This document shows positions 16,249 through 46,074 of a DNA stretch of 64,000 nucleotides, one piece after another. The number at the start of each line of letters is the position of its first letter. Within the stretch, counting starts at the first letter, position 1. The position numbers were made by a program, and so were the translations under genes. Location: NCBI RefSeq assembly GCF_900099805.1, contig NZ_FNDR01000002.1, forward strand, positions 620,001-684,000, written 5' to 3'. The notes under the pieces are model-generated. The model ran no database searches. It saw nothing but the letters and a program-made list of their open reading frames with translations, and was not told the DNA's origin. Source of the stretch: Variovorax sp. OV700 (GTDB taxonomy: Bacteria; Pseudomonadota; Gammaproteobacteria; Burkholderiales; Burkholderiaceae_C).

Positions 16249-16268
16249 GTTGACAGTTGAAGGTCGGA

Positions 16269-21023: not shown

Positions 21024-21041
21024 GTGAAGTTCCTTTGTCAC

Positions 21042-21251
21042 GTAAGGTTTATTAAAACTGTTCGCCTAAACGAAACACCGGGGCACATCCTTGACCCACA
21101 GCCAGGTGAATTTCTTCAAGCTGGTGCGGTGCCTGAGCATGTGACCGGATGCCTGGCTGCAGATTAGCGCTAGCTACACCCGCAGATCAGTTTCATACCG
21201 TATTGCGCCGATACCCTACTCCGTGAGACTTGTTTGAGAAGTGACCAAAGT
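21042..21251 (-). repeat. Leader repeat B (three-copy dispersed repeat), upstream of LLM gene
   Basis: Full-length copy of the repeat described at 10335-10541, with scattered substitutions and two small indels. It sits immediately 5' of the F420-type oxidoreductase gene on the minus strand. At its far edge it joins pcaJ/pcaF debris on the other strand. Confidence 0.8.
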
Positions 21252-21306: not shown

Positions 21307-21398
21307 CGACGCGGTCGATGGATGACCTGAGCCATGCCGAACTCGAACGCCTGGTCGGCCTGCCGATCCTCTTCTCTGACACCCGGAGCACCTCATGA
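21307..21398 (+). pseudogene. pcaJ C-terminal fragment (3-oxoadipate CoA-transferase beta)
   Basis: The frame ends [14 protein letters not shown] and stops with a TGA that overlaps the next ATG, the tail and coupling expected of 3-oxoadipate CoA-transferase subunit B before pcaF. Only about 30 codons remain. Confidence 0.6.
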
Positions 21399-21609
21399 CC
21401 AAACAAGCCTCATCTGCGACGCGATCCGCACGCCCTTCGGCCGCCACGGCGGCGCCTCCTCCTCCATTCGTGTCGACGACCTCGGCGCCTCCGGCGCCCG
21501 GCTGGCCACCACCGCCGTCAACCAGTTGCACCGTAGCGGCGGCCGCTACGCGCTCTGCACCATGTGCATCGGCGTGGGACAAGGCATCGCGGTCACGCAT
21601 GCACATTGA
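21395..21609 (+). pseudogene. pcaF (beta-ketoadipyl-CoA thiolase) with internal deletion and frameshift
   Basis: The N-terminus [15 protein letters not shown] is reached after a one-base frameshift from the ATG. It then jumps directly to the thiolase C-terminus [16 protein letters not shown]. About 340 codons are missing. The stub overlaps the start of pntA (21599), so pntA was placed against a beta-ketoadipate operon scar. Confidence 0.8.
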
Positions 21610-23257: not shown

Positions 23258-23269
23258 GAGAGACCACTG

Positions 23270-24688
23270 ATGTCCGCAAGTCTGTCCACGGTCTCCTATA
23301 TCGGAGCCACCATTCTTTTCATCCTGAGCCTGGGCGGCCTGTCCAACCAGGAAACTTCGCGCCGCGGCAATCTCTACGGCATGATAGGCATGGCGATTGC
23401 CGTGCTGGCCACCGTGTTCGGCCCGCAGGTCACGGCCGCCGGCATTCCCTGGATTCTCGGCGCCATGCTGGTGGGCGCCGCCATCGGTCTGTACGCGGCG
23501 CGCACCGTGCAAATGACGCAAATGCCCGAGCTGGTGGCGCTGATGCACAGCATGGTCGGCCTGGCCGCCATGCTGGTCGGCTTTGCCACCTTCATCGACC
23601 CGGAAGCGTCCAAGGAATTCACCGGCGCGGCCAAGGCGATTCACGAGATGGAGATCTACATCGGCATCCTGATCGGCGCCATCACCTTCTCGGGCTCCAT
23701 CATCGCCTTTGGCAAGCTGTCCGCGCGCATCGGCGGCAACCCCATGCTGCTGCCGGGGCGCCACTGGATGAACCTGGCCGGCCTGCTGGTGGTGATCTGG
23801 TTCGGGCGCGAGTTCCTCAACGCCCACTCCATCGACGAGGCCATGACGCCGCTGATCGTGATGACGGCGATTGCGCTGCTGTTTGGCGTGCACATGGTGA
23901 TGGCCATTGGCGGCGCCGACATGCCGGTGGTGGTGTCCATGCTCAACAGTTACTCGGGCTGGGCGGCCGCGGCCACCGGCTTCATGTTGTCCAATGACCT
24001 GCTGATCGTGATCGGCGCGCTGGTGGGCTCCAGCGGCGCCATCCTGTCCTACATCATGTGCAACGCCATGAACCGCAGCTTCATCAGCGTGATTGCCGGC
24101 GGCTTTGGCACCACCAGTGTCAAGCCCAAGGCCAGCGGGGACGCGGCGCAACCGGCCGGAGAAGTGATCCCGGTGAACGCGCTGGAGACGGCCGAGATGC
24201 TGCGCGAGGCCAAGAGCGTGATCATCGTGCCGGGCTACGGCATGGCGGTGGCGCAGGCCCAGCACACGGTGTTCGAGATCACCAAGCTGCTGCGCGACAA
24301 AGGCGTCAAGGTGCGCTTTGGCATCCACCCGGTGGCCGGGCGCATGCCCGGCCACATGAACGTGCTGCTGGCCGAGGCCAAGGTGCCTTACGACATCGTG
24401 TTCGAGATGGACGAGCTCAACGAGGACTTCCCCGACACCGACGTGGCCATGGTGATTGGCGCCAACGACATCGTCAACCCAGCCGCGCAGGACGACCCGA
24501 CCAGCCCGATTGCCGGCATGCCGGTGCTCGAAGTCTGGAAGGCCAAGCACTCCATCGTCATGAAGCGCAGCATGGCCTCGGGCTACGCCGGTGTGGACAA
24601 CCCGCTGTTCTACAAGGACAACAACCGCATGCTGTTTGGCGACGCCAAGAAGATGCTCGACGAGGTGATGGTCGCGCTGGAGGCTTGA
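23270..24688 (+). CDS. pntB: NAD(P) transhydrogenase beta subunit
   Basis: A 472-residue membrane subunit, 12 bp after pntA. The N-terminal half has eight to nine hydrophobic segments. The C-terminal NADP(H)-binding domain III has [10 protein letters not shown] and [17 protein letters not shown]. The ending L-D-E-V-M-V-A-L is also typical. It pairs with PntA in the inner membrane. Confidence 0.95.
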
Positions 24689-24973
24689 GGCGATGAGATC
24701 AATGGCAGAGGCGCGGCATTGACCAGGGCCATCACGCGCGTCGCCAGACCAATGCTGAACTTCGAGTCCTTTCGATCGGCCAAGAATGTCCTGACATGAC
24801 TCATGCACATGATTCGCAAAGGCCATTCTGCAAGGCTGCAACGAACTGTCTTTTGCCGACCAGTTTATGCGTTGGCAGGAAAAATCCATCGCAGTTGAGT
24901 AGCTGGCGCATCCGTTCCTACCCCTGACATGTTTATCAATTGGAACGCGACAGAAGCCCCTATTACAGTAACT

Positions 24974-26035
24974 ATGGAAAATCTCGACGTGAAGGTGCTT
25001 CGGACCCTGCATGGATGGCGCCGATCCGGTAAGCGAGCACTATTGGCAACGGTCGTGCGAACCTGGGGCTCGTCGCCGCGCCCGGTAGGCTCGATCATGG
25101 CGTTGTGCGAAGACGGCGCCGTGGTCGGCTCCATCTCGGGCGGGTGTATTGAAGATGATCTGATACACCGCTTTACGACGGCCAATGCTGGAAAAGATGA
25201 AATTCGTTCGCTCCCGTTGGGTCCTCCGATTTTCATAAGGTACGGGGTAACTGCCGAAGAGGCACACCGTTTTGGCCTGCCTTGCGGCGGCACACTAGAG
25301 TTGCTTTTGGAGTACGACCCGGACGCCATCAGCTTGGGCGAATTGGTTCAGGGACTGGAACAGGGGCAGCTAATGCGCCGAACTGTGCGGCTGTCCGATG
25401 GCACTGTTACCTTGGACGCGTCGCCTGGAACACCGTATGTAAACGCGACAGAAGTAGTAAACACCTTCGGCCCTGAGTACCGCATGCTGCTAATTGGCGC
25501 GGGTCAGCTAACCGAGTATCTGGCCACAATGGGGCTGTTCAGCGGCTTCGCTGTAACAGTCTGCGATCCTAGGGAGCAATACCGAGGTGGTTGGAATGTG
25601 CCGGGCGCTCAGATGCTGACCGGCATGCCTGACGATGTGGTCATGGCTTTCAAGCCTGACCGCCGTAGCTGTATTGTGGCCCTTACTCACGATCCCAAAC
25701 TTGACGACTTGGCTTTGCTGGAGGCGCTCAATTCCAAAGCGTTCTACATTGGCGCCATCGGCAGCAGACGTAACAACGCTGCCCGGCGGCAACGGATGAT
25801 TGACCACTTCGCGGAGACCGAAGAGTCATTAGCTCGGCTGCGCGGACCGATCGGTCTTTATATAGGGAGCAAGACCCCGGCTGAGATCGCGGTTAGCGTG
25901 ATGGCTGAGATTCTTGCGGTAAAGAATGAAGTAATTCTTCCGCAAGAAATGGACGTGGCTCGGGCTAAAGACGGGGGAGCGCCAAGGAGTTCCGATGTCG
26001 TGGGTGACCATAATGACGGTGGTGTTGCCGAATGA
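24974..26035 (+). CDS. XdhC/CoxI-family molybdenum-enzyme maturation factor
   Basis: A 353-residue XdhC/CoxI-family protein. The N-terminal domain has A-T-V-V-R-T-W-G-S-S-P-R-P-V-G-S and G-S-I-S-G-G-C-I-E. The C-terminal Rossmann-like domain has L-L-I-G-A-G-Q-L-T-E-Y-L and Y-I-G-A-I-G-S-R-R. XdhC proteins bind molybdopterin and insert sulfurated cofactor into xanthine dehydrogenase-type enzymes. The only such enzyme in the window is XdhAB at 5.3-9.1 kb, so this gene ties both parts together. The ATG at 24974 gives the family-like start; the frame is open 15 codons further up. Confidence 0.88.
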   Translation: MENLDVKVLRTLHGWRRSGKRALLATVVRTWGSSPRPVGSIMALCEDGAVVGSISGGCIEDDLIHRFTTANAGKDEIRSLPLGPPIFIRYGVTAEEAHRFGLPCGGTLELLLEYDPDAISLGELVQGLEQGQLMRRTVRLSDGTVTLDASPGTPYVNATEVVNTFGPEYRMLLIGAGQLTEYLATMGLFSGFAVTVCDPREQYRGGWNVPGAQMLTGMPDDVVMAFKPDRRSCIVALTHDPKLDDLALLEALNSKAFYIGAIGSRRNNAARRQRMIDHFAETEESLARLRGPIGLYIGSKTPAEIAVSVMAEILAVKNEVILPQEMDVARAKDGGAPRSSDVVGDHNDGGVAE

Positions 26036-28490: not shown

Positions 28491-29240
28491 TCAGAGAACC
28501 AGCTCGCGACTTACGGCGCGCACATCAACCTCGAATTCCATGCCTTGTACGGGTGGATAGCTGGGAAACAGCGTAAGACCGACGTTCGTAAGCCCACTCT
28601 CAGCAAACACCGACGAAACGACAGCCTCGACCGGATGTACCGTGTAGATCTGTGAAGCAGTGATCGACGACCATTCAGCACCCAACTGCAAGACTCTCTC
28701 GCGGAGTGCTTGCATGATGTACGCCGCCTTGCTCTTCAGGCCATCAGAGGAGACGTCGGCGCCACCAAAAATCCCGTCGGGCTCGCTCTCGATGTTTTCC
28801 GGCTTGCCCGAGATGAAAAAGTCGACTGGCCGAACCTCGTGTTTTCGCTCGACCGGGGCGGTGTATGTAAACGCAAACACGGAAGGCTCTATTGGAGGGC
28901 TGTACAGCGGGGCGAGGTTGCTGCGACCGATGGGATAGGGCGGCTGCCCTGAAAACCCACACGAGGCCAGAAGCTCAATGTATTTCCTGTTGAACTGATC
29001 GAAGTCTGAACGCGCAAGGGCCGCGGGCGAACGCAGTTCACACGCAGCTAACGCTGCCAGGGGCCTGCCCCTTTGTTGGAGGAAGGCAGCGATCTTCCGG
29101 AAACCCGCTTCCAGTGGTTGCGGCCGCAAAAACCGGACGCGATGCAGCTCGCTGCCTGCAAGAGCAGCGACGCCGTTTGAGAAATAGCCACCCGGGATGA
29201 ATCGAAAATTCCCAAGCTCATGGATCGCCGCGGTATTCAT
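28491..29240 (-). CDS. RidA/YjgF-like protein (tentative)
   Basis: A 249-residue protein whose last ~100 residues have the layout of the RidA/YjgF/UK114 fold (I-Y-T-V-H-P, then an F-P-S-Y-P-P-V-Q-G-M-E-F-E-V-D-V-R-A-V ending). RidA-family proteins hydrolyse enamine/imine intermediates produced by lyases and aminotransferases. The N-terminal half resembles a second, diverged copy of the same fold. It sits between the ggt pseudogene and the HisC-like aminotransferase. Assignment is by pattern only and is moderately secure. Confidence 0.5.
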   Translation of the reverse strand: MNTAAIHELGNFRFIPGGYFSNGVAALAGSELHRVRFLRPQPLEAGFRKIAAFLQQRGRPLAALAACELRSPAALARSDFDQFNRKYIELLASCGFSGQPPYPIGRSNLAPLYSPPIEPSVFAFTYTAPVERKHEVRPVDFFISGKPENIESEPDGIFGGADVSSDGLKSKAAYIMQALRERVLQLGAEWSSITASQIYTVHPVEAVVSSVFAESGLTNVGLTLFPSYPPVQGMEFEVDVRAVSRELVL

Positions 29241-29375: not shown

Positions 29376-30491
29376 TCAAGCCAGGATCTCACGCAACTCG
29401 CTGAGGAACCTGTCGTTGTTCTCTCGGGAACTGACCGTAATCCGCAGCGAACCACGCTGATTTGGCCAGGGCATCGCTTGTATCAGAATGCCGCCCTGTT
29501 TCAGCTTCTCCACGATGTCCTGGGCGGAAACCTGCGTTGCTGTGGGAAGACCCGCAGCAAGAAAATTCGCCTGACTGGGAAAGACCTCAAAGCCAAGCGC
29601 AAGCAGTCCGTCGCCAAGCCGGTTGCGTTCGCCAATGGTTTTGTCCAGCGTCGCCTCAAGGTGAGCCTTATCGGCATAGGCCTCGGTCGCGGCTGCGAGG
29701 GCGACCCGGTTCACATTGAAGTTCGGGCGAAGCTGCATGAGGCCCAACTGTATCTCGGTACCGCTGCTGATCGCGTAGCCGACACGAAGCCCAGCCAGAC
29801 AATAGGCCTTGGAAAACGAGCGTGTCACAGCCCAGGGGCCAACTCGGCTTGAGAGCAGTGCAAGAACATCAGGCCCACCACCATGGGCCGAAAACTCATA
29901 ATAGGCTTCATCGATTACCAGGAGGCAATTCTCGGGAACCTCCTCAATCGCGCGGAGGATGTCGGCCTGCCCGAGCGTGCCGCCGGTGGGATTGTTGGGG
30001 GTGCAGAGATAGAACAGGCGGGTCTTGGCGGTGATAGCCCCCAACATCGCCGGCACATCATTCACGCCATCCGACCGCAGGGGAACGCTGACCAGCTTAC
30101 CGGCCGCGATCTGCACACCCTTCGGACAGGTGGGAAAGGTTGGGGTGGGAACCACCGCCTCATCGCCCGGCTCGATCGAAAGCATTGCCAGCGCAACCAG
30201 CAACTCACCACTGCCATTGCCGAAGCTGATCCGATTGGTCGGTATACCCGTCTGGCGGGAGACAGCCGCAGCGAGAGAGCTGCAGCCGTGGTCGGGATAG
30301 GAGTTGAAACTGCCAAGCGTCGCAACAGCCGCGTGAATGGCTTTGGGCGAGGGTGGAAAAGGCGATTCGTTCAGGTTCATGCGAACATTAGACCCATCGA
30401 CTTCGAAACCACGGTCAGCAATCACCGGCGGTTGAGGGAAAACAATTTCCCGAACTTTTTTGATAGGGAAGAGGTGTTTCATCGTGTCCAT
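29376..30491 (-). CDS. HisC-like PLP-dependent aminotransferase
   Basis: A 371-residue fold-type I aminotransferase of the histidinol-phosphate aminotransferase/CobD group. PLP-binding features are T-P-N-N-P-T-G near 164, D-E-A-Y-Y-E-F near 194 and the Schiff-base lysine K228 in S-F-S-K-A-Y. It ends with the substrate carboxylate arginine region L-R-I-T-V-S. It is separated by 230 bp, containing a TRAP transporter scrap, from npdG. It may handle an imidazole amino acid or the tyrosine/glutamate side of F420 metabolism; a housekeeping HisC role is less likely inside this island. Confidence 0.85.
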   Translation of the reverse strand: MDTMKHLFPIKKVREIVFPQPPVIADRGFEVDGSNVRMNLNESPFPPSPKAIHAAVATLGSFNSYPDHGCSSLAAAVSRQTGIPTNRISFGNGSGELLVALAMLSIEPGDEAVVPTPTFPTCPKGVQIAAGKLVSVPLRSDGVNDVPAMLGAITAKTRLFYLCTPNNPTGGTLGQADILRAIEEVPENCLLVIDEAYYEFSAHGGGPDVLALLSSRVGPWAVTRSFSKAYCLAGLRVGYAISSGTEIQLGLMQLRPNFNVNRVALAAATEAYADKAHLEATLDKTIGERNRLGDGLLALGFEVFPSQANFLAAGLPTATQVSAQDIVEKLKQGGILIQAMPWPNQRGSLRITVSSRENNDRFLSELREILA

Positions 30492-30723: not shown

Positions 30724-31392
30724 TCAGTGGCTTGGCGCCCAGATCTTGATCCCGGCGTGCGAAAAGGGCACCGCCTTCGAGATGTTGATCCGGATGAGGA
30801 TCGGCGTGATTGCCTCAATGCAGCGCGCACTCTGGGCGGGGCCGGCATTGTAGGAGGTCACACCGAGCTTGTTGCACAGCTCCATAACCTTCATCCGGGC
30901 CGTAAGATCGTCGCCGCAGACCAGCACGTCACAGTTGATGTCCCAGTCCAGCGTATTCAGCGTTGTGGCCGATACGTTGTGCAAAGCGCCGATCACCGGA
31001 ATTTCCGGCCCGAGCAGGGCCTGAGCGGCCTCGGTTGCCGAGCCTTCCGGCGGCATGCTCACAAGTTTGGGATCGTTCGCGGACAAGGGCACGACAATGT
31101 CGACGAGGATCTTGCCCTTCAGTCCAGCCTTGATGGCCTCAAGCGTCACATTGTGCGCGCTGAAGGGAACCGCCAGGATCACGATCTCGTCCGCCTTTGC
31201 GACGGCGGCATCGTTGTTGACGCCGACGATCTGCGCACCGGCACCAGCCAGACGCTGGTTGAGTTCTGCGGCGATCTCAGCGCCACGCACCCCGTCGCGC
31301 GATCCCAAGGCAACAGGAATACCCGCACGCGCGAAGCGCAGTGCCAGACCCTGGCCTTGCGGGCCGGTTCCACCGATAATCGCTATAGTCAT
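30724..31392 (-). CDS. npdG: NADPH-dependent F420 reductase (F420H2:NADP+ oxidoreductase)
   Basis: A 222-residue Rossmann protein. The N-terminal nucleotide-binding loop is [13 protein letters not shown], followed by G-S-R-D for NADP 2'-phosphate selectivity. Later come [10 protein letters not shown] and the family-typical H-N-V-S-A-T-T-L and V-L-V-C-G-D-D segments. It transfers hydride between NADP(H) and F420, here probably charging F420H2 for the LLM enzyme. Its ATG overlaps the cofE stop (ATGA), the last gene of a cofD-cofC-cofE-npdG operon. Homologues occur in actinobacterial nitrophenol/picrate clusters and in methanogens. Confidence 0.92.
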
Positions 31393-32159
31393 TTGAACAT
31401 ATCCTCTGATTGATTTCTTAAAAGGTCGCCTGCGCAACCTGGTTTCTCATGCCAGTGCAATCCGCGGATCATCACCAGTGGCGTCCGCGACGCTTTGCCA
31501 ATGACGAGACCCGAAGCAGCCGCAATTTCATCCCCGAAGGCGGGTTCGGTAACGGAAAGTTCGCGGCCATGCGCATCCAGATTTCCGATTTCGGTCCTCA
31601 GAGCGGGCAGACCGGCGGCACCGATCGCGACGTTGACCTGACCCAAACGCCAGGGCCGACCAAAGGTGTCGCTGATGACGAGGCCGAAGGCACAGGCAAA
31701 CCGCGCTTGCAGTGATTGGTGCAGGCGGCGGGCGCACGCATCCGGATCGCGCGGCAACAGCAGAACGCGATTCTCGCCGCCAACATTCGACCTATCCACG
31801 CCAGCATTGGCCGAGATGTGGCCACTGACATGCTCGCAGATCAGCGTGCCCTCCTTCTGGCTCGGGTGCCAGAAATGTTTGACCACCCGGCTACTCTGGC
31901 GAAGCACGACTTCGACATAGCGGGCGTCTTTGCCCAACTGATCTGCCAGCTCCTTCGCTTCAGCCGACGGGGCCACCTCGTCCAGATCGACGAAAAGCCC
32001 CTCAGCCTTGGAAACGACCTTCTGCGCCACGACAAGGATATCGTTCTGCGCTATGCCGCCTGCGTGGCTGTGGATCGCATCGCCGAGGATGCGCGCAAGG
32101 TCGTCGCCGGAGGTGATATCCGGAACCCCTGGGATGGAGAAAATCGAGACTGCGGTCAT
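31389..32159 (-). CDS. cofE: F420-0:gamma-glutamyl ligase
   Basis: A 256-residue CofE that adds L-glutamates to F420-0 with GTP. Signature parts visible are [15 protein letters not shown] near residue 40, G-V-D-R-S-N-V near 120 and [13 protein letters not shown] near 165. It lacks the C-terminal FMN reductase domain found in actinobacterial FbiB; that function is probably supplied by the separate gene at 39964. It lies 7 bp after cofC and overlaps npdG. Confidence 0.95.
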
Positions 32160-32166
32160 GTTGTTT

Positions 32167-32790
32167 TCAACTGTGTTTGTCGCGCGACGCGATCTGTGAA
32201 AACTCTTGCAGATGTTCGGCTGAATCCAGATCGAACCTTATGTTGCTGTCGCGAAGGATGTGGCAGACCAGCCCGTTGCGCATCGCCTCCAGCCGATGGG
32301 CGCGAAACGATCCTTCGCCGTATTGGAACTTCATGGCGTCAGGCGGCGAAACCATCAGGCAGTTGGTTCCGCCATCTACCGATTCACAAAGTGCCACATG
32401 CCCGCGTGGCAAGACCAGGTTCTGCAAATAAACCAGATCTGCGGACGACAACAGGGGCAGGTCCATCGGCAGAATCGCCATCCGCTCGAAGCCGTTCGCG
32501 GCGGCCCAGCTTGCGGCCTTCCTTGCGGCTTCATTGATGCCTTCGGCACGGTCCTCAACCAGAGTGTTGAAGCCACGCGCCTTGCAAATGGCCTCGACCT
32601 GCCTGCTTTCCGTGATCACCAGAACGGCCGAGTCATCGGCGGCATTGGCAACCACGTCGAGCGTCCTTTCGAACATCGCCAAAGCGAACTCCCGCCGCGA
32701 ACGGTCATCCAGAACCATGGAGAGCCGCGACTTGGAAATCGACGGGTCCTTCATGGGAATCGCGAAGAGAAGAGGCTTGACCTGGCTCAC
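32167..32790 (-). CDS. cofC: Phosphoenolpyruvate/2-phospholactate guanylyltransferase
   Basis: A 207-residue nucleotidyltransferase of the CofC/FbiD family that activates 2-phospholactate, PEP or 3-phosphoglycerate with GTP. The N-terminus A-I-P-M-K-D-P-S-I-S-K-S-R-L matches the usual P-x-K-x-x-x-x-S-K-S-R-L, with L-P-M-D-L-P-L-L near residue 110 and D-G-G-T-N-C-L near 140. A GTG start at 32790 overlaps the cofD stop (GTGA). Which C3 acid it uses cannot be read from the sequence; the presence of an FMN reductase gene favours the PEP route. Confidence 0.92.
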   Translation of the reverse strand: MSQVKPLLFAIPMKDPSISKSRLSMVLDDRSRREFALAMFERTLDVVANAADDSAVLVITESRQVEAICKARGFNTLVEDRAEGINEAARKAASWAAANGFERMAILPMDLPLLSSADLVYLQNLVLPRGHVALCESVDGGTNCLMVSPPDAMKFQYGEGSFRAHRLEAMRNGLVCHILRDSNIRFDLDSAEHLQEFSQIASRDKHS

Positions 32791-33770
32791 GGCACCACCC
32801 CACAGGCCTCGGCAGACAGCGCCGTGGCCAAGACGGTACGCGCCAAGGCCACCTTGTCTTCCAACGAGGTCATGACAATATTGCAGGCGACGGCACACAG
32901 GCCGGCCGACTTCACATCGCCGCAGAATGCCCGATCAGAAGTATCAATCAGCAGCGTGTCGGCAATCCCGGCATAGCGCCGCGCGACGGCACCGACCGTG
33001 GCCTCGAACCCCAGGGATACCATCATCCTGTCCGCCGGACCTTTGATCGCCTTTCCGTTGACGAAGGGGCACACGGCGATCCTCGCGGCTTTGGCACCGG
33101 CAATCGCCGTCCGCATCCCGGCAATGGAGAGGATCGGCTCTATCGAGACCAACGGATTGCTCGGCGCGATCACGATGACATCGGCATTTGCGATCGCGTC
33201 CAAAGCTGCCGGATTCGGGGCCGCCACATCGAGTCCCTGGTAGGACAGCTCCAGCACCTCAGGAGCGCAATGTTCGCGGACGAAATATTCCTGGAAACTC
33301 AGCCAGCCCGCTTCCGTTTTTACGCGGGTTTGCACGACATCCTCGGTTGACAGAACAATCCGGCAGCAAGCGCCGAAAGCCCGAGAAATATCGTCGGCGA
33401 TGGCCTGGCGCGCGTGACCCTTGCGCAAGCGGCTGCTGCGATAGATATGCAGGCCAAGATCGCGGTCGCCGAGCGTCATCCAGGTTTCTTCGCCCAATTC
33501 CTTCAACACCGAAAGCCCGCGCAGCGCCTCGTCCGCAACCCCCCATCCCTGCTGTCGATTGATCCGGCCACTCAGGCTATAAGTGAGCGTGTCGATATCG
33601 GGCGATACCCACAATCCGTGGAACTCATCATCGTCCGCGACATTTCCTATGACGGTCAGGTCGACATTCTCGAGGCCCGCGAGCCCCTCCGCCATCTTGG
33701 CACCACCAACGCCCCCGGCCAGCAGGACAACGGATCTGTTCGTTGATGATTTCGACAAAGAATCTGACAT
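32787..33770 (-). CDS. cofD: 2-phospho-L-lactate/PEP transferase (CofD/FbiA)
   Basis: A 327-residue CofD/FbiA that joins the guanylylated C3 acid to FO, giving F420-0 or dehydro-F420-0. The N-terminal G-G-V-G-G-A-K-M loop, N-V-A-D-D-D-E-F near 43, D-L-G-L-H near 100 and P-S-N-P-L-V-S-I near 200 are standard. It is the first gene of the minus-strand F420 operon. Its ATG lies 35 bp from leader repeat C, and the fbiC gene is divergent on the other side. Confidence 0.95.
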   Translation of the reverse strand: MSDSLSKSSTNRSVVLLAGGVGGAKMAEGLAGLENVDLTVIGNVADDDEFHGLWVSPDIDTLTYSLSGRINRQQGWGVADEALRGLSVLKELGEETWMTLGDRDLGLHIYRSSRLRKGHARQAIADDISRAFGACCRIVLSTEDVVQTRVKTEAGWLSFQEYFVREHCAPEVLELSYQGLDVAAPNPAALDAIANADVIVIAPSNPLVSIEPILSIAGMRTAIAGAKAARIAVCPFVNGKAIKGPADRMMVSLGFEATVGAVARRYAGIADTLLIDTSDRAFCGDVKSAGLCAVACNIVMTSLEDKVALARTVLATALSAEACGVVP

Positions 33771-33804
33771 CGCTTAGCAACCAATCCTGCAATTTCAGTC
33801 AAGG

Positions 33805-33898
33805 ATGTGACCGACGCTTGCCTGCAGATTAGCGCTAGCTACACCCGCAGATCAGTTTCATACCGTATTGCGCCGATACCCTACTCCGTGAGACTTGT
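33805..33898 (-). repeat. Leader repeat C (partial copy), between cofD and fbiC
   Basis: About 94 bases nearly identical to the distal part of leader repeats A and B, including the TAGCGCTA palindrome. It lies in the cofD-fbiC divergent region, so it may control cofD, fbiC or both. The gene-proximal part found in copies A and B is replaced here. Confidence 0.8.
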
Positions 33899-33986
33899 CG
33901 GGTGCGGCAGGCGACCGCAAAATTGTTGTACTAGTTGGGGTAGTAGTCGGCGCGGACGTGGACATCTCAGAAAAGGGCTTATCAGT

Positions 33987-36386
33987 ATGATGAAAGACAT
34001 CCGGTTTGATCTGAACGATCTGGACCTCCTCCACGTTCTAGAGCAGGCGCCTCTGGAGGATATCCTCAAGGCAGCCAGCGAGAAAGCCAGAGCCTCCCAT
34101 GGCGCTGTAGTCTCGTACTCCCGAAAAGTCTTCGTTCCGCTCACTCATCTCTGTAGAGACGTATGCGCCTACTGTACGTTCGCTGCGCCGCCAGTCCGCA
34201 ATCAGAAGTCCTTCCTGTCTCCAGACGAAGTGCTCGCCATCGCCGAGGCCGGGCGCGCTACCGGCTGCCATGAGGTGCTGTTCACTTTGGGAGACAAGCC
34301 GGAGCTTCGCTATGCCAAGGCACGCGAAGAGCTGGCGACCCTAGGGCACCAAACGACACTTTCCTACTTGGAGGCGATGTGCGAGCTGGTGTTCAGGGAA
34401 ACAGGCCTTTTCCCGCACATCAATGCCGGGGTAATGTCGGAGGACGATATTGCGCGACTGCGCAAGGTGAGCATTTCACAAGGCCTGATGCTGGAAACCG
34501 TTTCCGACCGGCTTTGCCAGCGCGGCATGCCGCACTTCGGTTCGCCTGACAAGAAGCCCTCCGAGCGCCTCGCGACGATCGAGGCGGCGGGGAAGCAAGC
34601 CGTCCCGTTCACGAGCGGCATCCTGATCGGTATCGGCGAAACGCGTGCCGAGAGGATTGAATCGCTGCTGGCTCTTCGCGCGCTGCACGAGAGATACGGC
34701 CATATCCAGGAAGTGATCATTCAGAACTTCCGCGCAAAGCCGAATACGCGCATGGCCAATGCGCCCGAACCGACGACCGAAGACCACCTTTGGACGATCG
34801 CGGCCGCCAGACTTCTCCTTCCTGCCAGCATGAACATTCAAGCTCCGCCCAATCTTTGCAAGGACAGCTACACCGAGCTTCTCCGAGGCGGGATCAATGA
34901 TTGGGGCGGAATTTCTCCCGTGACCCCTGACCACGTCAATCCTGAAGCAGCGTGGCCGGAGATCGATCGTCTAGCTGATGCAACCCGGCGTTCGGGCCTC
35001 GAGCTGGTCGAGAGATTGGCGATCTACCCCGCATACACTAACAATGCCGAGCGTTGGATTGATCCGGCCTTCATCACGCCAATTAAGCGCGCGTCCGACG
35101 CTGACGGATATGCACGTGCCGACAAATGGTCTCCAGGGATCGCCAGCGTGAAACCTGCGGAGCCATTTCCATCACCCATTGGCGGGCTGCGCTTCTACGC
35201 GATGGACGGAGTGCTGAACCGCGCCGAATCGGGAGCGCGGCTCGATGAGCGTGAGCTGGCGAGCTTGTTTCAGGCACGTGGTTCCGGCGTTTCCGAAATA
35301 TGCAGCGCTGCGGACGCACTACGCAGATCCATCAATGGCGATACCGTCTCCTATGTGGTGACTCGCAATATCAACTATACGAACATCTGCTCTTTCAAAT
35401 GCAGCTTCTGCGCCTTCTCGAAGGGTAAAACCAGCGACAACCTTCGCGGCAAACCTTACGATCTCGCCCTCGATGAAGTGCAACGCCGCGTTGTCGAAGC
35501 GTGGGACCGTGGTGCCACCGAGGTCTGCATGCAAGGCGGAATTCATCCCAAATACACCGGGCAGACTTACCTCGACCTCGTTAAGGCCGTAAAAGAAGCG
35601 ATTCCTGAGATGCATGTCCATGCCTTCTCGCCGCTCGAAATCACCCACGGCGCTCAGACGCTCGGAATCGAGATCCCGACGTTTCTGTCGATGCTGCGCG
35701 ATGCCGGCCTTGGAAGTCTTCCGGGCACAGCAGCCGAAATTCTGGACGACCCCATTCGCCAACTCCTGTGCGCCGACAAGCTAACGACAGTCCAGTGGCT
35801 GAACGTGATCGAACAGGCGCATCGGGTTGGCCTCAAAACGACGTCCACCATCATGTTTGGTCACGTCGATGGACCCCAGAATTGGGCACGTCATCTGCTG
35901 CATCTCCGCGACCTGCAGGAACAGACGGGCGGGATTACCGAATTCGTCCCCCTGCCCTTCGTCCATATGGAGGCGCCCGCCTTCTTCCGAGGCGAAACGA
36001 GGAAGGGCCCGACATGGCGAGAAACAGTCCTAATCCATGCCGTCGCCCGTCTGGCACTTAACCCGTTGATCACCAATATTCAGGCCTCCTGGGTGAAACT
36101 CGGACCAGACCGTACCCGTGACGTCTTGAATGCCGGCGTGAATGATCTCGGCGGAACCTTGATGAACGAGAGCATTTCGCGTGCCGCCGGGACCGAACAC
36201 GGACAGGAGTTCGCTCCCAAGGAGATGGAGGCGCTCATCCGCTCCGCTGGCCGTGTCCCGCGGCTGCGAACGACCACCTACGGCGATGCTCCCGTCGAGC
36301 GCCGCAATGCAGCCTTCGCTGCGCCAGAGCTTACGCCGATGATTCTTACACCGCCAAGCCGCAAGTCTTTGAGCATGGCGAGCTAG
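33987..36386 (+). CDS. fbiC: FO synthase, fused CofG-CofH radical SAM enzyme
   Basis: A 799-residue two-domain FO synthase, the fused type typical of Actinobacteria. It condenses 5-amino-6-ribitylaminouracil with tyrosine into the deazaflavin FO. The CofG-domain cluster cysteines are C56, C60 and C63 (C-R-D-V-C-A-Y-C). The CofH-domain cysteines are C468, C472 and C475 (C-S-F-K-C-S-F-C). CofH features include V-C-M-Q-G-G-I-H-P, H-A-F-S-P-L-E and N-D-L-G-G-T-L-M-N-E-S. An upstream open extension of 60 codons is read through leader repeat C and is not family-like; ATG-ATG at 33987 is the sensible start. It is transcribed away from cofD and followed by the M20 gene. Confidence 0.95.
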   Translation: MMKDIRFDLNDLDLLHVLEQAPLEDILKAASEKARASHGAVVSYSRKVFVPLTHLCRDVCAYCTFAAPPVRNQKSFLSPDEVLAIAEAGRATGCHEVLFTLGDKPELRYAKAREELATLGHQTTLSYLEAMCELVFRETGLFPHINAGVMSEDDIARLRKVSISQGLMLETVSDRLCQRGMPHFGSPDKKPSERLATIEAAGKQAVPFTSGILIGIGETRAERIESLLALRALHERYGHIQEVIIQNFRAKPNTRMANAPEPTTEDHLWTIAAARLLLPASMNIQAPPNLCKDSYTELLRGGINDWGGISPVTPDHVNPEAAWPEIDRLADATRRSGLELVERLAIYPAYTNNAERWIDPAFITPIKRASDADGYARADKWSPGIASVKPAEPFPSPIGGLRFYAMDGVLNRAESGARLDERELASLFQARGSGVSEICSAADALRRSINGDTVSYVVTRNINYTNICSFKCSFCAFSKGKTSDNLRGKPYDLALDEVQRRVVEAWDRGATEVCMQGGIHPKYTGQTYLDLVKAVKEAIPEMHVHAFSPLEITHGAQTLGIEIPTFLSMLRDAGLGSLPGTAAEILDDPIRQLLCADKLTTVQWLNVIEQAHRVGLKTTSTIMFGHVDGPQNWARHLLHLRDLQEQTGGITEFVPLPFVHMEAPAFFRGETRKGPTWRETVLIHAVARLALNPLITNIQASWVKLGPDRTRDVLNAGVNDLGGTLMNESISRAAGTEHGQEFAPKEMEALIRSAGRVPRLRTTTYGDAPVERRNAAFAAPELTPMILTPPSRKSLSMAS

Positions 36387-36517: not shown

Positions 36518-37810
36518 ATGCCGACGAGGAGAAATGCTTTGACCAAACTTGCTCATGCCATTCGAGAGCTAAAGGACGCTTCTGCTGGACTGTTTCGTTC
36601 GATTGCCGATGCGTCACGCGATAAGGTCGAAGGGATTACACGCGCGGCCTATGGTCCCGAGGAAACCGCGACGGGTGAGATCCTCGCCGATTTCGCCCGG
36701 TCCGAAGGTCTGCAGGCCTCTTGGGACGGTGTCGGCAATATCCATATGACAAGACCGGGCAATGGCAAGTCGAACAAAGAGATCGTCATAGGCTCTCATA
36801 TCGACACGGTCCCACGTGGCGGCAATTTTGACGGGCTGGCGGGCGTGGTTGCAGGGGCCACCCTGTTGGCAGCCTTGCAGCGCGCGGCCATCGCCACGGA
36901 TCATGGCATCCGAGTCATCGGCTTTCGAGGCGAAGAGAGCCCCTGGCTCGGGCAGGCTTATATCGGCAGCAAGCTGCTGATGGGCGCGCTGTCCAGGGAC
37001 GAGCTGCACAATCTGAAGCACTCCCGCTACGGTAAGAGCCTGTGGCAGTTGCTCGAAGATCTGAAGTTGGATCCGGAGGAGTCGCTCAATCGCAAGCAAA
37101 TTCAACCTGCCAACATCCATGCCTATCTCGAACTTCACATCGAGCAGGCTCCCTTGCTGGTTTCGTTGAATCGTCCCGTGGCCGTCGCCCGGGCGGTTCG
37201 CGGCAATATTCGGCATCCCAAGGTGACGGTAACCGGCGAATACGGCCATTCGGGCGCCATGCCGCGGCATCTGCGCAAAGACACCGTCATGGCCACGGCC
37301 AAGCTGCTCGCCAGTATCGACGGGGAGTGGAAGCGCCTGATCGACGCCGGAAATGACGATCTCGTCTACACGACGGGCGTGATCCAAACGAACGCCGATA
37401 CCCATACCATGACGAAAGTTCCGGGCGAACTCACCTGGAGCTTCAACGTCGGCGGGACGAACGATGGCGTGATGCAAGAGCTTTATGATTTCGCGATCAA
37501 GAAGGCGGACGAGCTCGCAAGGGAACATTCGGTGACGTTCGATTTTGGCGTGCGAACGGGTTCGTCTGCCTCTCCCCTAGATCCGAGAATCATGAACGCC
37601 GCGATCAGGGCCGGCGAGGATCTTTCGATCGCGATGGAGATCATGCCCACCGTCGGACACGATGCCGCGATCTTCGAAAAGAACGGCGTTCCATGCGGTG
37701 TGATCCTGATCCGCAATGAGAACGGCAGCCACAACGCGGACGAGGCCATGGAGATCGAGGACTTCATTCTCGGCGTTCAAGTGCTGGGCGCAACCGCAGT
37801 ATCCATCTGA
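36518..37810 (+). CDS. M20-family N-carbamoyl-L-amino-acid hydrolase/allantoate amidohydrolase
   Basis: A 430-residue zinc hydrolase of the HyuC/AllC group that removes CO2 and NH3 from N-carbamoyl amino acids or allantoate. Metal and catalytic segments are G-S-H-I-D-T-V-P-R-G-G-N-F-D-G, F-R-G-E-E-S, L-H-I-E-Q-A-P, V-G-H-D-A-A and N-E-N-G-S-H-N-A-D-E-A-M. A TTG at 36539 with GAGGAG eight bases upstream is an alternative start. It is the natural partner of the hydantoinase at 14.8-16.2 kb: hydantoin to carbamoyl amino acid to amino acid. A decayed second copy of its C-terminus lies at 46320-46606. Confidence 0.88.
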   Translation: MPTRRNALTKLAHAIRELKDASAGLFRSIADASRDKVEGITRAAYGPEETATGEILADFARSEGLQASWDGVGNIHMTRPGNGKSNKEIVIGSHIDTVPRGGNFDGLAGVVAGATLLAALQRAAIATDHGIRVIGFRGEESPWLGQAYIGSKLLMGALSRDELHNLKHSRYGKSLWQLLEDLKLDPEESLNRKQIQPANIHAYLELHIEQAPLLVSLNRPVAVARAVRGNIRHPKVTVTGEYGHSGAMPRHLRKDTVMATAKLLASIDGEWKRLIDAGNDDLVYTTGVIQTNADTHTMTKVPGELTWSFNVGGTNDGVMQELYDFAIKKADELAREHSVTFDFGVRTGSSASPLDPRIMNAAIRAGEDLSIAMEIMPTVGHDAAIFEKNGVPCGVILIRNENGSHNADEAMEIEDFILGVQVLGATAVSI

Positions 37811-37855: not shown

Positions 37856-39187
37856 ATGGTAGATACGATCATCGAAAATGACATCGCCGCCGCTACGAAG
37901 CGCGTGCGCGATCGCTATGCCGCGGCAAATCCAAACAGCAAGGCAGCGCAAGAAGCGGCCCGTGCGGTTTTCCCCGCCGGCAACACCCGCGCAGTTCTCG
38001 GCTATCAGCCGTTCCCGCTGACGATCGCGAACGGCGTTGGCGCGGAAGTCGAGGATGCCGATGGTCACACTTATGTCGATTGTGTCGGCGAGTACTCCGC
38101 CGGGTTGTTCGGTCACTCCAACCCGACAATCAGGTCTGCCATCGTCAAAGCGTTGGACGCTGGCATCGTGCTCGGCGGGCCCAATCTGTATGAGACGAGT
38201 TTCGCCGCTGCGATATGCGACCGGTTTCCCTCCATTGAACTCGTGCGGTTCTGCAACTCGGGAACTGAGGCCAACACGCTTGCGCTGCTCGCCGCGAGGG
38301 CATTCACCAACCGCAAGAAGATCCTTGTCTTCAACGATGCCTACCACGGCGGGTTTCTGGCCTTCAAATCGGGTGGGGGAGCGTCAAACCTGCCGTTTGA
38401 TTTTGTGATGGCCGACTACAACGATCCGGCAACCGAAGGCCTGATGCGCAAGTTCGCGCCGGATCTTGCTGCTGTGATCATCGAACCGATCATCGGTGCG
38501 GGTGGAAACATCTGCGCGACGCCCGAATTCATGAGGATGCTGCGCACGACATCGCACGAGATAGGCGCGGTTCTGATTTTCGATGAAGTCAAGACATCTC
38601 GCAACGGCCCGGGCGGCATGCAGGAATGGTTCGGCATCATTCCGGACATGACGACGCTTGGAAAATATATCGGTGGCGGATTGACGACGGGCGCGTTCGG
38701 CGGCCGGCGCGACATCATGGAAATCTTCGACCCCGCCAAGGCTGGAACGCTCGTCCACTCCGGCACTTTCAATAACAACGTGTGTTCGATGGCGGCGGGC
38801 GTCGCTGCCATGACTGAGGTTTTCACGTGTGACGAAGCTGCTCGGTTCTTCGCGCGCGGCGAGGCATTCCGCTCCGAGTTGAACATCATGTTGGCCAAGC
38901 GCAATGTTCCGTTGCAGTTCACCGGGCTCGGCTCGATCATGGCGCCGCACTTCACGACCACCCCGATACTCGGTCCGAAGGACGTTCCGAAAATCGACAA
39001 GGTGCTAATGCCGCTCATGCATATGGAAATGCTGATGCGAGGTGTTCTTGTGGCCGCGCGAGGCGATATCTTCCTTAGCCTCCCGATGGAAAAGCGGCAT
39101 TTCGATACGGTCAAGGAGGCGTTGATGGGATTTGTCGATGAACATGAGAACTTGATAGTTCGTCATATACAACAGTCATGCCCTTAA
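37856..39187 (+). CDS. Class III aminotransferase, GSA-aminomutase-like
   Basis: A 443-residue PLP enzyme of the aminotransferase class III/glutamate-1-semialdehyde aminomutase group. Features are F-C-N-S-G-T-E-A-N near 132, the D-E-V-K pair near 243 and the PLP lysine K270 in T-T-L-G-K-Y-I-G-G-G. It follows the M20 gene by 45 bp on the same strand. It could move the amino group of a beta- or omega-amino acid produced by the carbamoylase. A C-terminal fragment of a paralogue lies at 46072-46332 next to the M20 remnant, so the pair is ancestrally linked. Confidence 0.88.
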   Translation: MVDTIIENDIAAATKRVRDRYAAANPNSKAAQEAARAVFPAGNTRAVLGYQPFPLTIANGVGAEVEDADGHTYVDCVGEYSAGLFGHSNPTIRSAIVKALDAGIVLGGPNLYETSFAAAICDRFPSIELVRFCNSGTEANTLALLAARAFTNRKKILVFNDAYHGGFLAFKSGGGASNLPFDFVMADYNDPATEGLMRKFAPDLAAVIIEPIIGAGGNICATPEFMRMLRTTSHEIGAVLIFDEVKTSRNGPGGMQEWFGIIPDMTTLGKYIGGGLTTGAFGGRRDIMEIFDPAKAGTLVHSGTFNNNVCSMAAGVAAMTEVFTCDEAARFFARGEAFRSELNIMLAKRNVPLQFTGLGSIMAPHFTTTPILGPKDVPKIDKVLMPLMHMEMLMRGVLVAARGDIFLSLPMEKRHFDTVKEALMGFVDEHENLIVRHIQQSCP

Positions 39188-39450
39188 TTTTGTGCTGAAA
39201 CGCTGCGGCTCTTCTCTCCATGGCCTGTAGGGTTTTGTATGATTTCCGCCGAAACCATGCAATTTCGGTTCTGCCATGAGGCATCGCCCGCGCCCATTCC
39301 GTACAGGATGACCTGCTGCGTCCGCAGCTGATTAAGGTGCCTCTAGTTTCCTAAAGGACTACGAGCGTCTCGCTGATTTGATCAAGCAGTTGAAGCCGCT
39401 TTGACGGTATGGAGTTGACCTGGTTATGTTTCCGGCTCCGCCAACGAGCC
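39188..39450. other. Non-coding spacer with unresolved debris
   Basis: Between the class III aminotransferase and the cofH relic. A stretch near 39350-39400 can be read S-F-L-K-D-Y-E-R-L-A-D-L-I-K-Q-L-K, but I cannot assign it. No complete gene is seen. Confidence 0.3.
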
Positions 39451-39847
39451 AACGGCGATGTCGCGCGGTATGTCGTAAACCGCAATAGCGGCGCGTACAG
39501 GAGGCGTTGGACCGCGGGGCAACCGAAGTCTGCACGCAAGGTGGGGTCAACCCGCACTACCTTGCTGTTCGCGACCTGCAGGAGCGCATCGGAGGCTTCA
39601 CCGAATTCGTCCCCTGCCGTTCATCTAAATGAAAGCGCCACTCGGGCGTCCGTGGCAGAACGCGCAAAGGCCCTACCTGGCTCGAGGTGCGACTGATGCA
39701 TGCGATCGCACGGCTGGTGCTGCTTCCGCTTATTGCCAATATTCAGGCAAGCTTGGCCCAGACGGCGTGCGAACCCTGCTGTATGGCGGGGTCAACGACC
39801 TCGGCGGCACGCTGATGAATGAGAGCATTTTTGCGCAGCATCGCTGA
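39451..39847 (+). pseudogene. cofH remnant (second F420 locus)
   Basis: In shifting frames this segment reads N-G-D-V-A-R-Y-V-V-N-R-N, D-R-G-A-T-E-V-C-T-Q-G-G, R-D-L-Q-E-R-I-G-G-F-T-E-F-V-P and N-D-L-G-G-T-L-M-N-E-S. These align in order with the CofH half of the intact FbiC. The radical SAM cysteines and several internal blocks are deleted, and frameshifts and stops separate the pieces. The DNA differs clearly from the intact gene, so this is an independent, diverged copy rather than a recent duplication. Confidence 0.85.
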
Positions 39848-39850: not shown

Positions 39851-39967
39851 TGGAAGCAGGCAGCCGAAGGCGTGCCGGTCGTCCTCATCCGCGGCGCACC
39901 CTATGCTCGGCGTGATGGGTCGGCGGCAGAGCTGCTGCGGTCCAAGACAACAGATTTGTTCCGATGA
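39851..39967 (+). pseudogene. cofE C-terminal remnant (second F420 locus)
   Basis: The frame V-P-V-V-L-I-R-G-A-P-Y-A, then G-S-A-A-E-L-L-R and T-T-D-L-F-R matches the C-terminal end of CofE (compare T-P-L-V-M-I-R-G and D-L-L-R-N in the intact protein). Its stop overlaps the next ATG as ATGA, preserving the ancestral coupling of cofE to the FMN reductase gene. Confidence 0.8.
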
Positions 39968-40623
39968 ACGCCGCGACTCGCAACGACGCACTGATGAATG
40001 CACTGGATGCACACAGCCTGCTTCGCGGGCGGCAGAGCATTCGCCGCTATCACGCAGCACAACCGTCCACCGCGAGTATCACAAGGATCTTTGAAAGCGT
40101 CGCGTATGCGCCGTCTGCGCACAATCGCCAGCCATGGCGTTACATGGTGCTGTTCGGGTCCGCTGCGAAGGAACAATTGGCGCTCGCCATGGGTCGTCGC
40201 CTAGCGGCCGACCGCAGCCGAGACGGTGATGCCTCTGACCCTATCCAACAGGACGTGGAGCGATCTTCCCAGCGGATCACACAGGCTCCAGTCGTGATCA
40301 TCGTCGCGCTCAGCATGGTCGAGATGGACTGCTATCCGGATCAGTTCCGCACGCAAGCAGAGCGCACGATGGCAGTGCAAAGCACAGCAATGGCCACGCA
40401 GAATTTGCTGCTCGCTGCGCATGCCGAGGGCCATGGCACATGCTGGATGTGCGCACCGTTGTTTTGCCCCGACGAGGTGAAGACGGCGCTGTCATTACCG
40501 GCGGACTGGGAGCCGCAGGGGCTGATCACGCTTGGCTGTCCGGCTCAGCCCGGACGGAACAAGCCGCGCAAGACAATCACCGATTTCGTTCGCTTCGCTG
40601 AACCACACGACGCTCCGGGCTAG
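39964..40623 (+). CDS. Nitroreductase-fold FMN reductase, FbiB C-terminal type (dehydro-F420-0 reductase candidate)
   Basis: A 219-residue nitroreductase-family protein resembling the C-terminal domain of actinobacterial FbiB. That domain reduces dehydro-F420-0 made from PEP to F420-0. The N-terminus R-S-I-R-R-Y-H motif (here R-Q-S-I-R-R-Y), A-P-S-A-H-N-R-Q-P-W-R and the late G-T-C-W-M-C-A-P are typical. It is intact while all its former neighbours (cofH, cofE remnants) are decayed, and the intact CofE has no such domain. It is therefore probably kept to complete the F420 pathway. The overlap with the cofE remnant supports this family assignment. Confidence 0.85.
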   Translation: MNAATRNDALMNALDAHSLLRGRQSIRRYHAAQPSTASITRIFESVAYAPSAHNRQPWRYMVLFGSAAKEQLALAMGRRLAADRSRDGDASDPIQQDVERSSQRITQAPVVIIVALSMVEMDCYPDQFRTQAERTMAVQSTAMATQNLLLAAHAEGHGTCWMCAPLFCPDEVKTALSLPADWEPQGLITLGCPAQPGRNKPRKTITDFVRFAEPHDAPG

Positions 40624-45782: not shown

Positions 45783-46074
45783 TGATGTTGACTCAGGAGC
45801 AAGCATTGGAGATACAAGTGATGGCCCGAAGGGGCGAGAGTGTCGGAGCGATCGCGAAGCAGTTGGATTGCTCGCGCAATACGGTGCGCAGGACCTGCGA
45901 GACGAGGCCGCGCAGCGGTACGGGCCGCGTGACCCGCGTGCATGCAAGCTCGACGACTACAAGACCTATCTGCATGAACGTATCGGGCAAGCCAGGCCCA
46001 GATGGATTCCGGCCACCGTGCTGCTGCGTGAGATCCAGGAACGCGGCTACACAGGCGGCATCAGCCAACTCAAG
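45783..46074 (+). pseudogene. IS21 istA N-terminal fragment, frameshifted
   Basis: Begins with M-L-T-Q-E-Q-A-L-E-I-Q-V-M-A-R-R-G-E-S-V and the HTH segment C-S-R-N-T-V-R-R. After a frameshift near 45895 it continues in another frame with Y-G-P-R-D-P-R-A-C-K-L-D-D-Y and G-Y-T-G-G-I-S-Q-L-K. It ends abruptly against the aminotransferase remnant, which suggests an insertion into that gene followed by deletion. Confidence 0.85.

Follow-up and report, generated by a model that had tools for sequence, protein, structure and literature searches.

Coenzyme F420 genes of Variovorax sp. OV700 in an island that probably degrades a nitrogen heterocycle by reduction

We have analysed a stretch of 64,000 nucleotides from Variovorax sp. 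OV700 (contig NZ_FNDR01000002.1 of assembly GCF_900099805.1, positions 620,001 to 684,000; hereafter the window), which lies on contig C13 of a genome of 6.48 Mb in 36 contigs and holds genes for the biosynthesis and recycling of coenzyme F420. Sequence comparisons and a structural model suggest that these genes are probably part of a horizontally assembled, co-regulated island, in which F420H2 would reduce a nitrogen heterocycle that a hydantoinase and a carbamoylase would then open. Because F420 genes, an F420-type enzyme of the luciferase family (LLM) and enzymes degrading nitrogen-containing rings are present in three blocks with one upstream element, we propose that F420 was probably acquired here to run one degradation pathway. 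The original prediction, made from the letters of the DNA, recognized the F420 locus correctly, but missed this likely purpose of the cofactor.

The gene identities are based on curated NCBIfam models with their cut-offs, and on Pfam for some genes. All the genes that had been predicted are present, and cofD, cofC, cofE, npdG and fbiC score above these cut-offs. The minus strand carries cofD (32787..33770; TIGR01819, 265.3 bits, cut-off 257.45), the guanylyltransferase gene cofC (32167..32790; TIGR03552, 142.7 bits, cut-off 105), cofE for F420-0:glutamate ligase (31389..32159; TIGR01916, 242 bits, cut-off 180.65) and npdG for NADPH:F420 reductase (30724..31392; TIGR01915, 186 bits, cut-off 149.8), while fbiC, encoding a fused CofG-CofH FO synthase (33987..36386; NF006687, 1141.3 bits, cut-off 1018), lies on the plus strand, with both the CofG and the CofH domain models far above their cut-offs. 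In the proposed overlapping operon, cofC starts at GTG 32790 with a 4 nt overlap with the end of cofD, and npdG probably starts at ATG 31392 with a 4 nt overlap with the end of cofE. The gene positions were as claimed, except that the starts of npdG, cofC and fbiC shifted slightly, the last one being probably ATG 33987 and not 33807.

Besides, a gene at 39964..40623 (plus strand), announced as an FbiB-type FMN reductase, encodes a cof-type nitroreductase resembling the C-terminal part of FbiB and is a candidate dehydro-F420 reductase, although it scores below the FbiB C-terminal cut-off (TIGR03553, 121.4 vs 249.55 bits). The protein is 59% identical to a Cupriavidus numazuensis protein encoded near fbiC, and the free-standing homologues found in eight cof loci (L005, L014, L038, L053, L148, L153, L154 and L155) share 41-59% identity with it. 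The accessory RibA at 13511 (GTP cyclohydrolase II; 13511..14722, minus strand) is also real (NF001591, 239.6 bits, cut-off 148). The closest solved CofC is the 3-phosphoglycerate (3-PG) enzyme 7p97, from the 3PG-F420 loci of Mycetohabitans, in which S162 is the diagnostic site (passages of PMC8764529). On the other hand, the CofC of the window has Gly at this position in the alignment to 7p97, not the Ser/Thr of the 3PG-F420 type, and its product is thus predicted to be ordinary F420, made from phospholactate or phosphoenolpyruvate, rather than 3PG-F420. Overall, the curated models support a locus of ordinary enzymology, complete for the F420-specific steps and for NADPH-linked recycling, as had been claimed.

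The candidate user of this cofactor is an LLM-family, Mer-like reductase (20004..21041, minus strand, with a start at 21041 or 21023), which we predict from its sequence, modelled fold and gene linkage to use F420H2. The best curated family of this protein is Mer (138.6 bits, below the cut-off of 348.7), and Mer also leads the sequence matches in the PDB with 24-27% identity. An AlphaFold model built with 16 sequences (pLDDT 87.5, pTM 0.87) aligns with Mer over 322 residues, with a Z of 37.3 and an rmsd of 2.4; the 15 entries with the highest Z are all F420 enzymes (Z 30.3-37.3), as are the first 26 rows obtained with Foldseek. A Gly-Ile pair of the LLM enzyme lines up with the site of Mer where a non-prolyl cis-peptide backs F420; the catalytic residue of Mer is given as Glu6 (passages of PMC11094777). 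The two proteins would thus share a fold and a Gly-hydrophobic cis-peptide site, but they differ at the position of Glu6, which by the alignment offset is Cys15 in the LLM enzyme; a methylene-pterin substrate is for this reason unlikely, and the substrate should be a different one. A PF00296 search detected eight other LLM proteins in the genome, all matching non-F420 families: six of them (L163 and L166-L170) over the cut-offs of alkanesulfonate monooxygenase, RutA, MsnO8 or NtaA/DmoA types, and L164 and L165 more weakly, below cut-off.

The LLM gene heads a run of six minus-strand genes with gaps of -31 to 315 nt. It is followed by a solute-binding protein (18799..19830), which we take to be of Bug type from its similarity to other such open reading frames of the window, an amidohydrolase resembling 8-oxoguanine deaminase and SsnA (17283..18662; PRK08203, 487.5 bits, below the cut-off of 532), a flavin reductase-like domain protein (16269..16967; PF01613, 75.9 bits), a HyuA/ErtD-like hydantoinase (14767..16299; NF058538, 484.3 bits, below the cut-off of 600) and, after a gap of 44 nt, ribA as the last gene. 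A second block on the same strand starts with another solute-binding protein, presumably also of Bug type by the same similarity (9301..10296), followed by the small (7630..9111; TIGR02963, 603.4 bits, cut-off 467) and large (5270..7642; TIGR02965, 1122.6 bits, cut-off 849.5) subunits of a xanthine dehydrogenase (XDH). Directly downstream of fbiC on the plus strand, we detected an amidohydrolase of the M20 hydantoinase/carbamoylase family (36518..37810; TIGR01879, 225.1 bits, cut-off 204) and a class III aminotransferase resembling glutamate-semialdehyde (GSA) aminomutase (37856..39187; PF00202, 171.2 bits).

The three blocks share an upstream element of 104 bp. The first copy (10438..10541, with an extension from 10377) precedes the Bug/XDH block, the second (21148..21251, 95% identical to the first, the similarity continuing over 21086-21147) precedes the LLM operon, and the third (33813..33916, 85% identical to the first) lies between cofD and fbiC. 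A core of 51 nt, at 33826-33876 in the third copy, is identical in all three, which was not observed in any of 100 shuffles. All copies have one orientation, each upstream of a minus-strand start (10296 for Bug/XDH, 21041 or 21023 for LLM, 33770 for cofD), and the similarity of the first two runs almost to the start codons; the third copy is also upstream of fbiC on the plus strand. No fourth copy of the core was detected in the window, an exact 40-mer was absent from the 20 kb on either side, and the element had no match in the plasmid collection. A riboswitch was considered and rejected, given no Rfam match, weak folding (z against shuffles of +0.8, -0.8 and -2.0 for copies 1, 2 and 3 on the minus strand) and no compensatory pairs in the 104 bp. 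The simplest reading of this arrangement is a common regulation of the XDH, LLM and cof blocks through the element.

From these genes, the repeated element, the kinship and predicted fold of the LLM enzyme and the linkage of its relatives to cof, npdG and ureide-hydrolase genes in other phyla, we infer the use of the cofactor, the co-regulation, the class of substrate and the order of a pathway that would run through ring preparation, F420H2 reduction, ureide hydrolysis, decarbamoylation and transamination. FbiC, CofC, CofD and CofE would produce F420 with RibA feeding the precursor, the nitroreductase would probably saturate dehydro-F420, and NpdG would keep F420 reduced with NADPH, perhaps helped by the NAD(P) transhydrogenase PntAB (21395..24688, plus strand; PntA by NF006942, 795.6 bits, PntB named from a plasmid match). 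XDH, a molybdenum hydroxylase, would prepare the ring; the LLM enzyme with F420H2 would reduce the nitrogen heterocycle or its conjugated side chain; and the SsnA-like amidohydrolase and the hydantoinase would act on the reduced ring, before the M20 carbamoylase and an aminotransferase complete the breakdown.

The LLM enzyme was detected in 43 of 301 Chloroflexota genomes, and its closest relative, in G610 of this phylum, is 55-58% identical to it. In a tree with 28 of 30 sequences (L166 and L169 were left out because they gave no BLAST match), the window pairs with G610 on a branch (96/92) whose sister group holds every other row from Chloroflexota and haloarchaea. The 20 plasmid records listed are without exception haloarchaeal, 15 at 44-47% and five at 39-40% identity; besides these, 117 plasmid records match more weakly, most of them from Streptomyces (39) and Rhodococcus (24). 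Among 12 Chloroflexota LLM loci picked from 48 matches, three have SsnA, NpdG, CofE, FbiB, CofD, CofC and LLM in a row and a fourth has NpdG through LLM without SsnA, the remaining loci having fewer or none of these genes in the stretch. In these four loci (L148, L153, L154 and L155), npdG-cofE-fbiB-cofD-cofC lie beside LLM, so that genes for the F420 tail are present while no FO synthase was recognised; FO salvage or an unknown FO synthase might explain this. In G610, which has its own CofG, LLM stands between a hydantoinase and an Asp/Glu/hydantoin racemase, with a carbamoylase-like nitrilase (below the cut-off of the N-carbamoylputrescine amidase model) ahead of the hydantoinase; open reading frames read as a transporter follow this row.

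Three of the four haloarchaeal LLM loci opened, on plasmids of Haloarcula, Haloterrigena and Haladaptatus halobius, hold genes for a molybdenum hydroxylase, an M20 enzyme, a D-aminoacylase, a threonine-synthase-like pyridoxal phosphate enzyme and HyuA-like and SsnA-like amidohydrolases, and those of Haloterrigena and Haladaptatus halobius also hold npdG. The latter two (L123 and L142) are apparently near-complete clusters for reductive purine degradation with npdG and LLM, L142 having an adenine deaminase and an NCS2 permease as well. The locus on the Haladaptatus caseinilyticus plasmid (L143, 2600-11005) carries a cytosine permease, an M20 enzyme, LLM, a dihydropyrimidinase-like protein, a class III aminotransferase and a methylmalonate-semialdehyde dehydrogenase, and is likely, by its gene content, to encode an F420-dependent reductive pyrimidine pathway. 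The M20, class III and HisC-like aminotransferase, hydantoinase and LLM genes of the island were also considered as habitual neighbours of FbiC, which was not so in 80 loci, with few and weak matches; the link of these genes to cof thus came from the side of the LLM enzyme and from the repeat.

The first strand of the LLM enzyme of the window reads FCFLDRP, and this FLDRP type was otherwise observed in one of 16 aligned Chloroflexota sequences. We tentatively suggest that the enzyme represents a third subtype of F420H2-dependent heterocycle reductases that cross domains, beside a purine and a pyrimidine type, and that it probably acts on an imidazole or a hydantoin-forming substrate; the reductase, the ureide-opening enzymes and the whole of F420 biosynthesis would then lie in one island under one element, the cofactor having been acquired for a single catabolic pathway. 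An imidazole or a compound that forms a hydantoin is favoured by the genes for the hydantoinase, the M20 enzyme, histidine ammonia-lyase (HAL) and the GlcD-like and HisC-like proteins, a purine by the kinship of the LLM enzyme and by the XDH, and a pyrimidine would also be in keeping with the M20 and aminotransferase genes.

An imidazole of the histidine type is a possible substrate, although still a doubtful one. HAL and XDH would in this case produce an oxidised, urocanate-like acid, which the LLM enzyme would saturate with F420H2. The resulting 5-substituted hydantoin, hydantoin-5-propionate or a related compound, would then yield an amino acid through the action of the ErtD-like hydantoinase and the ErtE-like M20 enzyme. 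A second HAL gene (3544..5103; TIGR01225, 606.4 bits, cut-off 539.15) and a gene for a GlcD-like, FAD-linked hydroxyacid dehydrogenase-like protein (1964..3481; glcD, 260 bits, below the cut-off of 567.9) lie 3' of XDH on the same minus strand, with gaps of 166 and 62 nt, and would fit such a route. Relatives of the GlcD-like gene (39% identity) and of the HisC-like aminotransferase gene of the island (29376..30491, minus strand, 232 nt downstream of npdG; hisC, 260.5 bits, below the cut-off of 276.55; 51% identity) are side by side near the hut genes in Ponticoccus. Two relatives of the hydantoinase (41-42% identity) were opened: one in Burkholderia ambifaria occurs with HutH, urocanate hydratase and M20 genes, and one in Thalassospira with urocanate hydratase, without HutH in the stretch. 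The closest LLM relative adjoins, as described, a hydantoinase and an Asp/Glu/hydantoin racemase, and ErtD is the best curated family of the hydantoinase and ErtE the fourth-best of the M20 enzyme. However, neither Ert model reaches its cut-off (484 vs 600 bits for ErtD, 216.5 vs 520 bits for ErtE), no urocanase was detected among the window genes scanned, and we found no precedent for the proposed reaction.

Reductive purine degradation is a somewhat unlikely alternative. Here, XDH and the two amidohydrolases, one SsnA-like and one HyuA-like, would degrade urate/yanthine or an 8-oxopurine by the route known from E. coli and C. difficile, with F420H2 and the LLM enzyme in place of YgfK. LLM relatives in the purine-type haloarchaeal loci and in the SsnA-cof-LLM operons of Chloroflexota support this route, as do an XDH above its cut-offs and the 8-oxoguanine-deaminase-like gene in the LLM operon. 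On the other hand, no match to YgeX, YgeW or UacY (queries Ec_YgeX, Ec_YgeW, Ht_ThrC and Ht_UacY) was detected in 39 window proteins, in the window gaps that were searched or in the 20-kb flanks, and for the proteins at 17283 and 14767 PF07969, the Pfam family of UacY, comes second to another match. The amidohydrolase at 17283 is closer to 8-oxoguanine deaminase (487 bits) than to the SsnA subfamily (TIGR03314, 131.4 bits, below the cut-off of 455.5), with 27% identity to a haloarchaeal SsnA-like protein, and the LLM enzyme branches separately and has another motif in its first strand.

Less probable than either of these is the reductive degradation of a pyrimidine, with the LLM enzyme and F420H2 acting as a dihydropyrimidine dehydrogenase ahead of the hydantoinase, an M20 ureidopropionase and the class III aminotransferase. 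The Haladaptatus caseinilyticus locus has such a complement around an LLM of 40-42% identity, the M20 and class III aminotransferase genes are directly 3' of fbiC in the island, and one M20 relative opened (39%, Agrobacterium) is beside genes of dihydroorotate-dehydrogenase type and for a nucleoside phosphorylase. However, the genome already encodes a RutA (636 bits, cut-off 498), the LLM enzyme of the window resembles the pyrimidine type less than the purine type, and the class III aminotransferase of the island is 27% identical to the haloarchaeal one.

Several observations weigh against an F420H2-dependent pathway as the purpose of the island. With thresholds of E<=1e-50 in Pseudomonadota and E<=1e-40 among FbiC-bearing entries, and with a query that found its positives in the Pseudomonadota, in the Chloroflexota and in the first set of FbiC-bearing entries, the LLM enzyme was detected in one of 398 Pseudomonadota sampled, which is the host itself, and in none of 82 other FbiC-bearing entries (32 and 50, of which G323 and L058 have an identical FbiC and are probably one genome); a 31% match in G240 (2.8e-31) is outside the threshold. 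The proteobacterial pairing of LLM and FbiC thus rests on this one genome. A simple co-occurrence of the two in Chloroflexota failed as well: FbiC was detected in 41 of 301 genomes (E<=1e-60), and only G601 and G610 have both, of 43 and 41. CofG occurs in two of 40 LLM-positive genomes (of the 43) and in four of 40 LLM-negative ones, hand-picked as near neighbours in number; since 38 of 40 LLM-bearing Chloroflexota tested are without a recognised CofG, kinship of the LLM enzyme does not imply that F420 is made in the same cell. Flavin luciferases come next in the fold ranking (Z 29.5 and below), a small step from 30.3, and the FCFLDRP strand differs from the [IL]YLQDKH and IWNWERK of the two better-defined types. 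The ureide enzymes of the window are 25-30% identical to their counterparts in the haloarchaeal loci, and YgeX, YgeW and UacY were not recognised in the regions searched. To these points are added that the repeat could be a passenger and that the LLM operon includes a flavin-reductase-like gene, as might be expected for an FMN monooxygenase of two components.

It is improbable in our view that the repeat of 104 bp is mobile DNA or a passenger without a part in co-regulation, and that the neighbourhood is a chance mosaic of imported catabolic cassettes. Insertion sequence (IS) remnants and decayed second gene copies are present in the window, and no sigma-70-like promoter was seen around copy 3, but against this reading stand the one orientation of the three copies upstream of minus-strand starts, a similarity of copies 1 and 2 that extends toward the start codons, and the lack of any other copy in the window or of the exact 40-mer in its 20-kb flanks. 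Least probable of all is that the LLM enzyme works as an ordinary FMN monooxygenase of the two-component kind, with the flavin-reductase-like protein at 16269 as its partner, and that F420 serves unrelated enzymes: LLM proteins are often paired with flavin reductases, and a PF01613 gene is part of the LLM gene run, but the nearest matches of the enzyme in sequence and structure are F420 enzymes, its relatives adjoin npdG and cof genes, and it has its upstream element in common with the cof operon.

The horizontal acquisition of the F420 genes, as originally predicted, is supported by the distribution of FbiC and by phylogeny. FbiC was detected in 27 of 399 same-order genomes including the host (E<=1e-100), i.e., in 26 of 398 others, and the host is the only member of its own family among them. 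Full-size FbiC (E = 0) was present in three of 100 relatives, all of other families, and five further matches in this set, which are weak (7.9e-5 to 6.6e-4) and same-order only, are probably other radical-SAM proteins. Trees were built for FbiC, NpdG and CofE as well as for LLM. In the FbiC tree (105 rows), the window groups (99*) with two metagenome-assembled genomes (MAGs), one of Afipia and one betaproteobacterial, with a Paracoccus and with G415, which belongs to another family, and stands apart from Cupriavidus numazuensis, whereas NpdG joins Chloroflexota NpdG genes that are near LLM (91/94, on a long branch) and the CofE tree gave no resolution. The gene set is thus possibly a mosaic, and may come from more than one source. 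In another same-order genome (G144), we observed a divergent CofG/CofH pair (L117/L119) that is 48-50% identical to the FbiC of the window and has stops in its first part.

The IS remnants mentioned in the original prediction are real and of IS110 and IS3 type. A transposase of IS110 type occupies 1167-2183, matches to the IS3 family extend over about 48053-49373, and the HTH_21 protein at 42247 is presumably IS3-type as well. At 48381-48497, there is an ALIL pseudoknot (Rfam RF01497, 114.7 bits), which we take to be the frameshift signal of IS3-family transposases. Fragments of a decayed second fbiC (39436..39829, plus strand), in several frames and with stops, lie directly 5' of the nitroreductase gene and have no special closeness to the intact fbiC, and decayed second copies of the M20 (plus strand) and aminotransferase (minus strand) genes are at 46072..46594, with 51% and 37.5% identity to the intact genes over 88 residues each. 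The remnants and the decayed copies show a repeated turnover of the island.

Other genes of the window have various affinities. The XDH, HAL and GlcD-like genes and that for the XDH maturation factor XdhC (24929..26035, plus strand; PF13478 and PF02625) are second copies, with 65-70% identical DNA elsewhere in the genome among the matches listed (XDH at G000:C24 with 65%, HAL at G000:C33, xdhC at G000:C17). The 3' end of the XDH large-subunit gene has a tandem duplication of 72 bp (97% identical) at 5274-5417. The ribA region (13511-14600) has 76.5% DNA identity to that of a Cereibacter azotoformans plasmid, which suggests an alphaproteobacterial source. The best plasmid matches of pntAB are from Cupriavidus (81%) and Burkholderia (79-80%). 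On the minus strand, the second gene after npdG encodes a CnbZ-type aminomuconate deaminase-like protein (28491..29240; NF049982, 246.5 bits, cut-off 220), which has relatives in only three plasmid records.

Among known F420 loci, those of Cupriavidus numazuensis (L014) and Neopusillimonas (L053) have the same npdG, cofE, cofD, fused fbiC and cof-type nitroreductase genes close together; in comparison with other proteobacterial loci, fbiC is here divergent and followed by M20 and aminotransferase genes. The reductive uric acid pathway, XdhD-YgfK/UacX-SsnA-HyuA-YgeW/UacY-YgeY-YgeX, has been described for E. coli and C. difficile in passages of a paper that concerns anaerobic bacteria, where a putative F420-dependent yanthine reductase of PF00296 was also proposed to stand in place of YgfK in Chloroflexota (2025, PMC12507026). 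The island has in common with it, as far as these passages describe it, the molybdenum hydroxylase, the SsnA-like and HyuA-like amidohydrolases, M20 and the PF00296 enzyme of Chloroflexota, but it is without recognised YgeX, YgeW and UacY, has de novo F420 biosynthesis and carries an LLM of another subtype. The degradation of picrate by the Npd/Fht system of Rhodococcus, Nocardia and Nocardioides uses the same reductive ring attack by F420H2 in catabolism (passages of PMC8498797). That system is actinobacterial and acts on nitroaromatic substrates, unlike the island. To our knowledge, it has no hydantoinase or XDH genes. For the haloarchaeal F420 routes, we found no describing paper among the open-access papers listed; an oxidative urate route in Haloferax, and not an F420 route, is described in passages of a haloarchaeal review (PMC8305020). 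Overall, the island is probably a variant of the proposed F420-reductive purine and pyrimidine routes.

Judging from the haloarchaeal loci, the F420 route that has been proposed for Chloroflexota may extend to archaea and come in a version for pyrimidines as well. For the Proteobacteria, the island gives a concrete test case for the purpose of F420, with a named enzyme, a candidate chemistry and a shared element. If our proposal is true, a complete and rare cofactor would have been taken up to serve just one catabolic pathway.

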